In this document: positions 10,087-37,910 of the stretch, in pieces
Numbering within the stretch: the stretch's first letter is position 1
Layout of the letters: each line of letters begins with the position of its first letter
DNA from: Tildeniella nuda ZEHNDER 1965/U140
GTDB taxonomy: Bacteria > Cyanobacteriota > Cyanobacteriia > Leptolyngbyales > Leptolyngbyaceae
Assembly (NCBI GenBank): GCA_019358895.1
Contig: JAHHIG010000004.1
Coordinates: forward strand, 1 to 64,000
Reading direction: 5' to 3'
DNA: 64,000 bases
Translations under genes and position numbers: made by a program
Notes under the pieces: model-generated
What the model saw: the letters and a program-made list of their open reading frames with translations, nothing else
Told to the model about the DNA's origin: nothing
The model's database searches: none

Positions 10087-10440
10087 GCTTTGAGTTGGAA
10101 TCGTTTCGTTTCAGATGCGGATGATGCCGTTTCAACCGGGAACGATCGCGCTTCAGATAAGACCATTGCGGTTTTAAGTTGGAACGATCGCACTTCAAAT
10201 GAGACCATTGCCGTTTCAAGCGAGAACGATCGCACTTCAAACGAGAACGATGCGGTTTTAAGTGGGAACGATGCGGCTTTAAATGGGAACGATCGCACCT
10301 CAAACAGGAATATTTCTGTTTCAAGTAGAAGCGATCGTGCTTGGAACTCGAAGCTTCGACCTTTTTGCTCAAACCGCCGAGCCTGGAACTCGAAGCTTCG
10401 ACCTTTTTGCTCGGAACGCCGAGCCTGGAACTCGGAACTT
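10087..10440. repeat. 21-bp-period intergenic array A
   Basis: About 16-17 units of exactly 21 bp in register, with consensus roughly GTTTCAAgtgGGAACGATC plus GC; many units contain the HIP1-like core CGATCGC. Examples of unit starts are 10087, 10108, 10129, 10150 and 10171. The last part has a 42-bp superunit (TCGAAGCTTCGACC) that occurs twice. Since 21 is a multiple of three, long ORFs appear on both strands, but these are heptapeptide repeats and unlikely to be genes. Related arrays lie at 12996 and 37680. Confidence 0.85.
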
Positions 10441-14668: not shown

Positions 14669-15592
14669 ATGACAACGTCTCTACATTGGCGACACCGAGT
14701 AGGCAATCAGCGCGATTGGGTCTGGCGCGGTTGGCAGACTCGCTATACCTACCTTCGAGCCGCGCAACCGGGGAGTACAACCCCGCTGATTTTGCTGCAT
14801 GGATTTGGGGCATCGATCGGGCACTGGCGCAACAATCTGGACGCTTTAGCAGAACACCATACCGTTTACGCACTCGATATGTTGGGCTTTGGTGCCTCTG
14901 AGAAAGCAGTGGCAGCTTACAACACCGATCTCTGGGTCGAGCAGGTTTACGACTTTTGGAAAACCTTTATTCAAACGCCTGTCGTGTTGGTGGGCAATTC
15001 GATCGGCTCTCTGGTTTGCATGGCAGTTGCCGCTGCCCATCCCGAAATGGTGGCAGGGTTCGTGATGATCAGTCTGCCCGACCTATCGATGGAAGAAGAG
15101 GCGCTACCGAAACCATTGCGTCCGTTGGTTGGTAGCCTCAAGCGCTTGATTCTCTCGCCGCTGTTGCTCAAAGCACTTTTTCCGCTGGTGCGCCGACCCA
15201 AGTTTGTGCGCACCTGGGCAGCGATCGCCTACGCCCAACCCGATGCCATCACCGACGAACTCATCGACATTCTGGCAGGACCGCCTCAAGACCGGGGTTC
15301 CGCGCAGGCATTTGCCGCCATTTTCAGAGCCGTGACCGATTCTCGCTACAGTCCTCACATCAAAACCGTGCTGCCGACCCTCACAGTACCAATGCTGCTC
15401 ATTTGGGGACAGAACGATCGCATGATTCCCAAGCAGTTTGCCCGTCCCAATCAGTACGGCGAGTACAATCCCAATTTGCAGCTAATTGAACTAGAGAATG
15501 CCGGACATTGCCCCCACGATGAATGTCCTGATCAGGTGAATGAGGCAATTCTAGACTGGCTTCTCATGGAAAGGCTAAAGGCTGAAGTCTAA
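14669..15592 (+). CDS. Alpha/beta-fold hydrolase
   Basis: A 307-residue alpha/beta hydrolase. The oxyanion strand is PLILLHGFGASIGHWRNN; the nucleophile elbow is GNSIGS (Ser about 112). The acid is the Asp in WGQNDRMIP and the histidine is in ENAGHCPHDECPD. The cap region is helical. The fold is shared by esterases, dehalogenases and chlorophyll-related hydrolases; the substrate cannot be given. The last codons (ERLKAEV) come from a GGCTAAA-type heptanucleotide array that continues past the stop. Confidence 0.85.
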   Translation: MTTSLHWRHRVGNQRDWVWRGWQTRYTYLRAAQPGSTTPLILLHGFGASIGHWRNNLDALAEHHTVYALDMLGFGASEKAVAAYNTDLWVEQVYDFWKTFIQTPVVLVGNSIGSLVCMAVAAAHPEMVAGFVMISLPDLSMEEEALPKPLRPLVGSLKRLILSPLLLKALFPLVRRPKFVRTWAAIAYAQPDAITDELIDILAGPPQDRGSAQAFAAIFRAVTDSRYSPHIKTVLPTLTVPMLLIWGQNDRMIPKQFARPNQYGEYNPNLQLIELENAGHCPHDECPDQVNEAILDWLLMERLKAEV

Positions 15593-15640
15593 AAACTTTC
15601 TTTTAGCCTTTAGCCTTTAGCCTTTAGCCTTTAGCCTTTC
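15569..15640. repeat. GGCTAAA/TTTAGCC heptanucleotide inverted array
   Basis: GGCTAAAGGCT at the 3' end of the hydrolase gene is followed, after a short loop, by about five copies of TTTAGCC (15603-15639). The two parts can pair into a hairpin between the convergent hydrolase and nurA genes. It supplies the final codons of the hydrolase. Confidence 0.75.
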
Positions 15641-15642
15641 CC

Positions 15643-17022
15643 CTATGCAATGCTGCCTCGCTTCCGTGCTTCTTTGTAGGAGGTGCCGACATTTCGCAGT
15701 CCAGCGCGGATCATTTGTTGTTCCAAAAGGGCGAAAAAGCGAGTGCGATCGCCCCCTCTTACAACAGCTTGATTGTGTGCTTCTGCCAGTGCCACCGGAT
15801 AGCCATAGCCTTTTTGCACCTGCGCCAGCGTCAGACTCAGCGCCGTATCCAGCAAAATGGCATCCTCAGCGACCCAGGTAGGAAACTCCACGCGGGCAAT
15901 TTCTGTTCCCACGTGAACGTAGCAGAAGTAGATGTGATGATCGCCATACAGATCCAGAATGCGGGCAGAACTGCGCCAGAGAGGGCTGCGCTGACCGGGC
16001 TGTAGCTCCATTGCCCAGAGTGCTGCATCCTTCAACGGTTCTAACACTTGACAAGGCGCGTGCGCGAGAGGGAAGCCTTCGCGATCGCCCAAGCCAGCAC
16101 AATGCGTCGCACAATCCGGCACATCGTAAGGACACGCTTGCAACCGTAGAAAGTTGAGCGCTTCCCCACTCCGCGAGGCGCTGATGTAGCCGACTAAGGG
16201 AATGCTTGCACTACGAAGTTTCTCCCACGCTTCGAGGATAGGCGGCAGAATGCGATCGCGCGCCTCCCCCGGCAGCGAGTCAAGGAACCAGTAGATGAGA
16301 GAGCCATCGACCATTGCGAGGGAGTGGGGAGTGGGGAGTGGGGAGTAGGGAGTAGGGAGTGGGGAGTGGGGAGTAGGGAGTTTCCGCCTCCTGCCTCCTG
16401 CCTCTTGCCCCCTGCCTCCCTCTGCCTCCCCTGCTCCCTCTGCCTCCCCTGCTCCCTCTGCCTCCCCTGCTCCCTCTGCCTCCCCTGCCCTCTGCCTTCT
16501 GCCTTCTGCCTCCTGCCTCCCGATTTCTTCTCCCAACTCCGCCAGCACGATCGCCTCCGATACCGTACGCCGATAGCCCATCCATTCTTCCGTGCGGATG
16601 CCCCATTGTCGAGAGACGTAAAGATCTTCGGGACGGTAGAACACTTCGGGCAGGCTGTCGAGCAAGGGTAGACGGTTCTGCCCGTAGTGCAGCACAATGC
16701 GCCCAACGTTAATCAGGTAACAGTAAGCAATTTCGTGATGGCTGGGGGCAATTTGGGAGCCATCGGTTGCCAGGACGGTGTGGGCAGCAGGCGGCACGGG
16801 AATGCTGACACGCAGGTTGAGCGGTTCAACGGGCGCGGCGGCAGTAAAGCTGAGGCGATCGCGCCAGGTTTGCTGCTGCTCAACCAACGCATTTTGGTGA
16901 CGATGCGCCTGTCCTAAAAGCATCTGTGCCCTTTCTAATCGCTGTCTTGTCGCTGTGGCTTCGAGGGTTAGCTGCTGGCTGATGCCCTGCATTTGTTGTG
17001 CAAGCTTTGTGAGATCGAGCAT
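15643..17022 (-). CDS. nurA: NurA-domain nuclease with in-frame repeat insertion
   Basis: NurA is a 5'-3' nuclease that works in DNA end processing; cyanobacteria carry a related protein. The conserved acidic motifs are ATDGSQ (D87) and MVDGSL (D239). The C-terminal part contains YPVALAEAHNQAVV, as in the family. Between the two Asp motifs, residues 168-234 are a low-complexity stretch: EAEGAG repeats, then PTPHSPLPTPYSPLP. This is encoded by heptanucleotide repeats that normally lie between genes. The length of 459 residues is therefore about 67 more than expected. The reading frame is intact. Confidence 0.82.
   Translation of the reverse strand: MLDLTKLAQQMQGISQQLTLEATATRQRLERAQMLLGQAHRHQNALVEQQQTWRDRLSFTAAAPVEPLNLRVSIPVPPAAHTVLATDGSQIAPSHHEIAYCYLINVGRIVLHYGQNRLPLLDSLPEVFYRPEDLYVSRQWGIRTEEWMGYRRTVSEAIVLAELGEEIGRQEAEGRRQRAGEAEGAGEAEGAGEAEGAGEAEGGRGQEAGGRRRKLPTPHSPLPTPYSPLPTPHSLAMVDGSLIYWFLDSLPGEARDRILPPILEAWEKLRSASIPLVGYISASRSGEALNFLRLQACPYDVPDCATHCAGLGDREGFPLAHAPCQVLEPLKDAALWAMELQPGQRSPLWRSSARILDLYGDHHIYFCYVHVGTEIARVEFPTWVAEDAILLDTALSLTLAQVQKGYGYPVALAEAHNQAVVRGGDRTRFFALLEQQMIRAGLRNVGTSYKEARKRGSIA
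16321..16521. repeat. STRR block inserted in frame in nurA
   Basis: A 201-bp block, exactly 67 codons. It is made of GGGGAGT heptamers (16321-16380), then CTGCCTC-type units including four copies of TGCTCCCTCTGCCTCCCC-like sequence (16431-16490), then CTGCCTT units. It keeps the frame and contains no stop in the gene frame. Confidence 0.85.
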
Positions 17023-17029
17023 TGGGGGG

Positions 17030-17200
17030 TGAGGGGTGAGGAGTGAGGGGTGAAGGCTAAAGGCTAAAGGATGAAGGCTAAAAGTGAGAAGCCGAAGGCT
17101 AAAGGTGAAAGGCTAAAGGATGGATCAGCTTACCCCTGCCTTCTGCCTTCTGCCTTCTCACCCCTCTCTCCTCTCTCCTTTCTCCTTTCTTTTCTGCCTT
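17030..17200. repeat. Mixed heptanucleotide arrays between nurA and pilM
   Basis: GTGAGGA and GGCTAAA units (17030-17118), then CTGCCTT and CTCTCCT units (17139-17195). The gap of 575 bp between the divergent nurA and pilM genes holds these repeats and, from about 17200 to 17597, the likely pil promoter and leader. I see no further gene. Confidence 0.7.
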
Positions 17201-33726: not shown

Positions 33727-33777
33727 AGATCCCCGACTTCTCTACGAAGTCGGGGATCTTCGGGAAGTCGGGGATCT
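33727..33777. repeat. Hairpin with a duplicated right arm
   Basis: AGATCCCCGACTTC (33727-33740) pairs perfectly with GAAGTCGGGGATCT at 33746-33759, and the same right arm is repeated at 33764-33777. It is related to the terminator at 57374. It lies between the divergent thiE and DUF1565 genes; the rest of that 328-bp gap shows no gene. Confidence 0.7.
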
Positions 33778-36195: not shown

Positions 36196-36595
36196 CCTGC
36201 GTAGAATGGGCAAAGCGCAGCATGCCCATAGTCAGCTTTAGTGATGGACACGGGAAGACCCTTTGTCCATCCTACGTTTCGTGCTAAAGCTCTTAGCCTG
36301 CGTAGAATGGCAAAGCGCAGCATGCCCATAGTCAGCCTTAGTGATGGACACGGGAAGACCCTTTGTCCATCCTACGTTTCTACGTTTCGTGCTAAAGCTC
36401 TTAGCCTGCGTAGAATGGGCAAAGCGCAGCATGCCCACAGTCAGCCTTAGTGATGGACACGGGAAGACCCTTTGTCCATCCTACGTTTCATGCTAAAGCT
36501 CTTAGCCTGCGGAGAATGGGCAAAGCGCAGCATGCCCATAGTCAGCCTTAGTGATGGACACGGGAAGACCCTTTGCCCATCCTACGTTTCGTGCT
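36196..36595. repeat. Four-copy 101-bp tandem array with two hairpins per unit
   Basis: Units start with CCTGCG at 36196, 36297, 36405 and 36506. The spacing is 101, 108 and 101; the 108 is explained by one deleted G and an 8-bp TACGTTTC duplication. Each unit holds ATGGGCA/TGCCCAT and GATGGACA/TGTCCATC hairpins, separated by AGTCAGCCTTAGT. The copies are nearly identical, so the expansion is recent. The array fills the gap between the DUF1565 gene and the convergent cysteine hydrolase gene. Confidence 0.9.
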
Positions 36596-37679: not shown

Positions 37680-37910
37680 GATCAGAAAAGTGCGACTGTG
37701 GACTCAAAACTACGCTATGACCATTGCTTTGTGCATCGATCGATCTCGAATGGATTGCCATCGATCTCAAATGTAGAGCTATCAATTTCAAATGTAGAGC
37801 TATCGATCTCGAATGTAGAGCTATCGATCTCAAATGTAGAGTCATCGCTCTCGATTGCATCCTGATCGAGCTTGAACGTGGTGCGATCACTCTTGATTGC
37901 ATCTTGATCC
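37680..37910. repeat. 21-bp-period intergenic array C
   Basis: Eleven units of exactly 21 bp start at 37680, 37701, 37722, 37743 and so on. The most regular are ATCTCAAATGTAGAGCTATC plus G at 37764-37847. The phase-conserved core TCTCAAATG resembles the TTTCAAGTG of arrays A and B, and CGATC closes most units. It fills the gap between the cysteine hydrolase and Uma2 genes. Confidence 0.85.

Follow-up and report, generated by a model that had tools for sequence, protein, structure and literature searches.

The nurA-like gene of Tildeniella nuda ZEHNDER 1965/U140 carries, in the middle of its reading frame, a block of 7-bp repeats of the kind that lies between genes. This raises the question of whether such a block is a linker tolerated by the protein or splits the function of the gene, and of how the repeats came to occupy this position. 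We examined the locus in the first 64,000 nucleotides of contig JAHHIG010000004.1 (the window), together with the rest of the genome and other cyanobacteria. The original prediction was that an intergenic heptanucleotide block had been added in frame between two conserved Asp motifs of a nuclease.

The gene at 15643–17022 encodes a NurA-domain protein

15643..17022, minus strand: nurA-like gene with a NurA domain (459-aa stop-free ORF; Pfam PF09376; structural match to NurA chains)
16762..16764, minus strand: codon of D87 (ATDGSQ), invariant in 68 of 68 aligned rows
16306..16308, minus strand: codon of D239 (MVDGSL), within the strand (residues 233–239) that comes after the insert, invariant in 68 of 68 aligned rows

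The encoded protein matched the full Pfam NurA profile (PF09376, profile positions 1–254, residues 81–421) with an E value of 1.7e-45 and a score of 155.9 bits against a cut-off of 21, in agreement with the predicted assignment to the nurA nuclease family. No match was obtained in NCBIfam at E ≤ 1, and a search of PDB sequences with the NurA alignment profile as query gave no match at E ≤ 0.1. The better structural model, which was built on 68 aligned rows, had a mean pLDDT of 85.2 and a pTM of 0.82. A second-look structural aligner returned NurA chains in its seven top rows, with 2ygk giving a Z score of 15.9 over 278 residues at an rmsd of 5.2. Plain Foldseek placed three NurA chains on top for the first, poorer model, but with E values of 0.055 and worse; for the better model it gave nothing at E ≤ 0.001 and no NurA chain among the 50 matches listed. 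From the profile match and the model we conclude that this is a genuine NurA-domain protein with a predicted NurA fold.

D87 and D239, which had been numbered correctly in the original prediction, are invariant in all 68 aligned rows, as is E156; we take these three residues to be catalytic in NurA nucleases, and hence putatively so here. Four Cys residues (297, 304, 308 and 324) are likewise invariant in the 68 cyanobacterial rows and perhaps form a metal or Fe-S site. A search of the T. nuda genome for a HerA partner yielded DUF87/HerA-type matches (best E value 2.8e-52), with matches also obtained in 14 of 14 control genomes. Among relatives fetched by name, of which 80 of 513 were kept, the nearest were Leptolyngbya sp. 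FACHB-321, Stenomitos frigidus ULC18 and Lyngbya sp. HA4199-MV5 (85–88% identity over the best segment).

A two-armed heptad block lies in frame within nurA

16321..16521, minus strand: repeat block translated as residues 168–234, in frame and without a stop, recognized by its heptad units and periodicity
16320..16383, plus strand: G-rich arm of GGGGAGT/AGGGAGT heptads, the complement of which encodes TPHSPLP/TPYSPLP
16386..16520, plus strand: C-rich arm of CTGCCTC/T heptads plus an 18-bp unit, the complement of which encodes QEAEGRRQ and EAEGAG

The block of GGGGAGT and CTGCCTC units was found where it had been predicted. It consists of five GGGGAGT and three AGGGAGT units, followed by nine CTGCCTC units, two CTGCCTT units and the 18-bp unit. 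Lag identity was 0.93 in the first arm (lag 7) and 0.72 in the second (best of lags 7, 9 and 18), and the periodicity of each arm exceeded that of all 2000 shuffles. The claim that the block is exactly 201 bp holds for the span itself, but the exact cut was the reader's own; measured against relatives with short loops, the insert proper comprises 65 codons (residues 169–233, 16324–16518, coordinates set by hand). The reading frame is kept, as claimed, within the stop-free 459-aa ORF. Both EAEGAG and PTPHSPLP had been attributed to heptads, but EAEGAG derives from the in-frame 18-bp unit. The G-rich arm holds eight G3–4 heptads, where at least four spaced G-tracts define a G-quadruplex heptad, and could adopt such a structure.

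Similar blocks lie on either side of the gene.

15570..15639, no strand assigned: two-armed AAAGGCT/TTTAGCC block immediately downstream of nurA; on the nurA strand, each of the three frames contains stops
17023..17158, no strand assigned: two-armed repeat block abutting the nurA start codon; it likewise has stops in each of the three frames on the nurA strand

The second of these occupies the place where the nurA ribosome-binding site would lie.

In the model, the NurA loop sits between a long helix and the D239-bearing strand, joining helix 144–188, which runs about 20 residues into the insert, to strand 233–239. In the better model, a pLDDT under 50 over three or more consecutive residues was limited to 201–214 and 222–227, both of which are within the insert. 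Modelling of the loop thus returned the NurA fold with confidence and the insert as disordered, and tolerated growth of a linker loop, one of the two outcomes that had been foreseen, is therefore the best supported reading. The other outcome, a split in function, is not supported: in 161 of 161 cyanobacterial NurA loci containing both halves of the domain, both were in one frame with no break between them. The only stops seen in these loci were N-terminal, in a part of one metagenome locus (L160) that did not align. The T. nuda insert is presumably translated.

The repeat units are dispersed in the genome and lie mostly outside genes

The predicted identity of type between the nurA units and intergenic repeats was borne out. 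GGGGAGTGGGGAGT occurred 251 times in the 6.08-Mb genome compared with 26 times for a backwards control, and the nurA block had at least 49 matches at E ≤ 0.001 when 40 of 455 first-look candidates were scored. The placement of blocks of at least 35 bp was assessed in an 864-kb sample comprising 40 stretches of 20 kb plus the window. Among the 83 blocks found, 66 were outside coding ORFs, 10 were internal to coding ORFs (nine genes, including nurA and ligA) and seven were at ORF ends. As 81% of the sample is coding, the blocks are strongly depleted from genes, although not absent from them. At least one of the 83 (33727–33777) is a different dispersed palindromic repeat of the GATCCCCGACTTC type.

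The repetitive peptide could also have arisen at the protein level, as a low-complexity linker whose likeness to the repeats comes from repetitive GAG/GGC and CCC/ACT codons. This explanation is opposed by the 94–97% DNA identity of the nurA block to noncoding blocks across 61–98 bp, as random codon choice would not give that; further evidence on it comes from the other cyanobacterial linkers described below.

Within-genome homogenization, or copying between loci, may have contributed to the sequence of the block, an idea that counts of unit sequences support only in part. TCACCTCTCACCTCTCA was commonest in the genome that has this sequence in nurA (nine in G001, zero to two in the other six), but GACTCCCGACTCCC, which is present in nurA of G002, was commoner in other congeners (19 in G002 and 60 in T. 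nuda).

The window also contains other tandem repeats. Approximately four copies of a 101-bp repeat are present at 36196–36595, and repeats of 21/42 bp, an in-frame length, are at 10123–10438 and 37738–37909; the latter two possibly encode pentapeptide-like repeat proteins.

Two-armed blocks are polar

When blocks within 100 bp of each other were grouped, 76 clusters were obtained. In all 35 clusters with one G-rich (plus) and one C-rich (minus) side the plus side came first (29 outside genes and six touching genes). The remaining clusters consisted of three plus-first pairs in a row (one cluster), a single side (39 clusters) or no labelled unit (one cluster), and none was minus-first. Unit families were mixed between the arms of one cluster. 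The arm order reads identically on both strands, so that one half would be expected by chance. Two-armed blocks are thus polar, with the G-rich arm 5' of the C-rich arm on either strand.

As the unit-family labels had been set after inspection of the data, polarity was retested with period-7 arrays of any sequence, each labelled solely by its unit's count of G minus C. The ratio of G-first to C-first pairs was 20:0 in T. nuda, 16:0 in G010 (a member of the same family) and 21:1 in Scytonematopsis (G097), where the stretches had been picked around known repeats. In total, 57 of 58 pairs in the three genomes were G-first, the other neighbouring pairs being same-side or neutral. Long purine runs beside long pyrimidine runs were purine-first in 5/5, 4/4 and 3/3 cases (three sets, the last of which was chosen for inserts). 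In one earlier grouping, a single unit departed from the arm order in three of 31 two-armed clusters.

Two possible causes of the polarity were considered, and neither found support. Among gaps of at least 80 bp, blocks were present in 10 of 71 between convergent genes, 34 of 279 between tandem genes and 10 of 110 between divergent genes, and this lack of clear enrichment gives no indication of a role in transcription. Special foldback strength was also not found: the nurA block folds as RNA into a long rod of −90 kcal/mol, which is not better than shuffles (z −0.83), and its foldback as DNA was not above shuffles either (z 0.38).

The NurA loop is filled by different repeats in other cyanobacteria

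Of 163 NurA loci fetched, two (L065 and L091) were dropped because one half was absent, and merging of 16 duplicates among the other 161 left 145 distinct proteins; nine of 92 matching genomes with partial or weak matches were left out. The linker between the two halves was 4–89 aa long with a median of 18, being at least 25 aa in 58 proteins and shorter than 25 aa in 87. The original prediction had allowed that long low-complexity inserts might be ancient and common in the family. This holds in part, as 58 of the 145 linkers are long, but most are short and the long ones differ between lineages.

Thirty-one of the 58 long linkers were periodic at p ≤ 0.01 in a permutation test, 15 of them with period 7, and the repeats that fill the periodic loops differ between lineages. 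The loop of Microseira wollei, for example, is filled by another repeat that has 43 matches in its own genome, a count that is a lower bound (at most 40 candidates scored per genome). On a quick, unrooted flank tree of 144 rows (one of the 145 proteins had too little core), the 'long and periodic' state changed at least 15 times. This tree was built without a mixture model, 44 of its 141 inner branches were open and it gave a long-branch warning; as it is unrooted, gains and losses are not told apart.

A check for absence of the block in close relatives had been proposed. Some relatives do have short loops, including G003 of the same genus (24 aa), but T. nuda, G001, G002, G005 and G006 all have a periodic linker of 56–89 aa. 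The presence of such a block in five of the six genus members seen (in a seventh, G004, the contig stops in or beside the loop) indicates that it predates this species. Compared with T. nuda, the four congeners with long linkers had a flank identity of 92–96% and a linker identity of 33–57%.

The purine content of the linkers was also asymmetric. Among the 58 long linkers, 37 had a clearly higher purine content in the first half than in the second and none a clearly lower one, while 37 of the 87 short linkers were strongly purine-first and eight strongly the opposite. As the trend is present in short linkers too, the protein itself may account for part of it. The tendency of short linkers to be purine-rich at their start, together with the 27 of 58 long linkers that are not periodic, is what speaks for the protein-driven origin introduced above; given the identity to noncoding blocks and the period of 7, which is no multiple of 3, in 15 linkers, we consider that origin very improbable.

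A related explanation is that the linker was selected for a job of its own, such as HerA or DNA binding or tuning of the nuclease, with repeat DNA serving merely as the source. Long linkers do recur at one site beside a catalytic-type Asp, they repeatedly have a charged half that precedes a Pro/Ser-rich one, and the T. nuda model extends the helix to residue 188. Against this, the loop has no conserved residues, 87 of the 145 proteins have fewer than 25 aa at this position and similar peptides are found in loops of unrelated proteins (LigA, MutS2 and others). A selected function of the linker thus seems improbable, if less so than a protein-driven origin.

In-frame blocks are present in other housekeeping genes

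Searches with the nurA block identified in-frame blocks in genes for LigA (61 aa), MutS2 (51 aa), an SbcC/Rad50-like protein (70 aa) and an EgtB-like protein (64 aa), as well as in those for an aspartate kinase, a hydantoinase and an AMP-binding enzyme with several blocks. SbcC, EgtB, MutS2 and similar names are our interpretation of Pfam matches, and the genes are not a random sample since they were found through matches to the nurA block. The MutS2 block is located between two matched parts of the ATPase domain, and the loops of LigA and MutS2 have a layout like that of the NurA loop. Internal blocks in the 864-kb sample were in genes for a class I aminoacyl-tRNA synthetase, a nickel insertion protein, an AcrB-type transporter, an FAD-binding flavoprotein, an AMP-binding enzyme (acyl-CoA synthetase type), a histidine kinase and a PMT_2 protein. 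Three loci of the T. nuda genome (L184, L193 and L200) have several separate in-frame blocks per gene, including SAVSGQR-type arrays.

The ligA loop was 27–80 aa long in seven of seven genus members compared with 8–19 aa in 16 of 21 other measured genomes. The mutS2 loop was 51–91 aa long in seven of seven genus members; among 22 other genomes it was 5–25 aa in nine and 26–90 aa in 13, indicating that long mutS2 loops extend well beyond the genus. That these repeats can be kept within genes, as the original prediction had it, is supported, but not as the outcome of a single invasion of one gene in one species. A one-off invasion was rejected because long periodic linkers are present in most of the genus, other repeats occupy the loop in distant cyanobacteria and other genes are affected.

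Loop length was a multiple of 3 in 28 of 30 ligA loci and 29 of 30 mutS2 loci. In the mutS2 exception (L290, from G014) the loop is read in frame and the break is further downstream, and in one ligA exception (L255, from G010) the break is before the loop. The other ligA exception (L258, from G014) has a frame break and a stop within the repeat loop itself, so that either the repeats are not always tolerated or this fragmented genome contains a fault. All three breaks are in genes expected to be essential and could be assembly faults.

Repeats are hard to assemble, and the G004 contig ends in or beside the nurA loop, which might suggest that the T. nuda block is itself an assembly or sequencing artefact. 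Separate congener assemblies hold different in-frame blocks at the same site in nurA, ligA and mutS2, however, and we give an artefact next to no credence.

Stop codons restrict which units can become coding

A tandem 7-bp unit runs through all three frames, so that a stop in any one of them prevents the unit from being read through. Among the open units are ACTCCCC, ACTCCCT, GGGGAGT, AAGGCAG, CTGCCTT, GGTCAGC, TATCAGC, CTCAAAA and AATTACC, whereas AGGGAGT, GCTGACC, GCTGATA, AAGGCTA, TAGCCTT, TTTTGAG and GGTAATT contain stops. Because AGGGAGT contains a stop, a mixed GGGGAGT/AGGGAGT arm is open on its C-rich strand only, which is the strand used in nurA.

The peptide word TPHSPLP was in a stop-free frame of at least 300 aa at 14 of 80 places listed (150 of 382 candidates scored), whereas GEWGVGS was in such a frame at none of 73 places listed, with three more in frames of this length that had stops (150 of 325 scored). 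These counts are lower bounds, and the frames in them run from stop to stop; some arrays are just outside the gene proper and one gene was counted twice. Stop codons largely decide, then, which unit and which strand can become coding. AAGGCAG is open both ways, yet by our reading six blocks at or in ORFs were KAEGRRQ-like and none was LPSAFCL-like, a bias that hints at a second filter favouring polar peptides.

Origin and maintenance of the insert

The insert is probably one of the host's own two-armed heptad blocks, lodged in a NurA loop that already existed and tolerates indels, and translated as a polar, disordered linker that may be close to neutral in its effect. We propose that slippage, together with copying between foldback arms, would lengthen and shorten the arms, and that selection would discard products with a frame shift, a stop or damage to structured parts. 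Sites would then persist while their sequence turns over, as appears to be the case for the nurA, ligA and mutS2 loops. New blocks might come in through a mobile step or develop from small seeds.

The similar two-armed layout at many sites, and its occurrence in frame in several unrelated genes, could instead point to a mobile element that transposed whole into nurA in the manner of Rickettsia palindromic elements. Such an element would be expected to have a fixed consensus, which was not found, as unit families, arm lengths and spacers vary freely; moreover, congener loops hold different sequence, which fits turnover in place. Transposition of a whole element is accordingly unlikely, though it ranks above a selected linker function.

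If a host repeat block in a tolerant loop is indeed what nurA contains, this locus and its counterparts are a natural replicated experiment on noncoding repeat DNA becoming protein, in which one nuclease loop was filled by different repeats in several lineages and in which frame, stop content and disorder predict the survivors. The polarity of the arms would provide a handle on the growth of these long-known repeats. It would also warn against taking every low-complexity insert in a cyanobacterial housekeeping protein for a domain, as such inserts can be repeat DNA.

A broader and more tentative reading, for which we hold the chances to be below even, is that cyanobacterial heptad blocks, whatever their unit families, make up a single class of polar two-armed elements. 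A structure-driven or dedicated process would regenerate them at fixed sites, so that site and polarity are kept and the sequence turns over. Loops of essential proteins would then repeatedly become translated repeat DNA, filtered mainly by stops, frame and fold tolerance, and the blocks would be a standing source of new disordered protein sequence.

Comparison with known repeat systems

Heptad repeats of this kind in cyanobacteria are presumably those classed as STRR (short tandemly repeated repetitive) sequences, reportedly described by Mazel et al. in 1990 as tandem heptanucleotides dispersed in cyanobacterial genomes. The T. nuda repeats resemble them in both respects, being tandem 7-bp units dispersed in the genome, and they lie mostly outside genes.

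In the accessible parts of a survey of G-rich heptads, Nostoc PCC 7120 has dispersed 7-bp units, GGGGA(C/T)T, that are 68% intergenic with some in genes, and Xanthomonas has repeat pairs in convergent orientation (PMC4692102). The T. nuda blocks are similar in being mostly intergenic and sometimes intragenic, and the convergent Xanthomonas orientation, with the G-rich arm first, has the same polarity. They differ from those of Nostoc in their two arms, as few inverted pairs are reported there, and the available text of that account mentions neither a protein loop occupied by different repeats, nor arms of mixed family, nor filtering by stop codons (PMC4692102).

Rickettsia palindromic elements are dispersed selfish repeats found in frame in non-structured segments of unrelated housekeeping genes, according to the sections available (PMC10969869, PMC2996958). 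In-frame insertion in unrelated genes is shared by the T. nuda blocks. The Rickettsia elements are families of approximately 150 bp with a conserved peptide, whereas the blocks described here are tandem arrays with no such consensus: unit families, arm lengths and family order vary, peptide similarity is limited to short recurring words, and one loop may hold different repeats in different genomes. The enterobacterial RU elements are intergenic repeat units with a reading frame that is used inside genes, in which they are like the heptad blocks, but as far as the accessible text goes they are MITE-like with a fixed length of 103–168 bp and not heptad arrays (PMC2759123).

Our literature search found no report of heptads filling a fixed loop of a cyanobacterial protein, which, with thin coverage of subscription journals, is weak evidence of absence. 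Intragenic heptads in Nostoc (PMC4692102) and in-frame selfish repeats in Rickettsia (PMC10969869, PMC2996958) are already published. As far as the literature searched shows, what the present analysis adds is that one loop has been filled by different repeats across lineages, a list of the housekeeping genes affected, the polarity of arms of mixed family and an accounting of stop codons.
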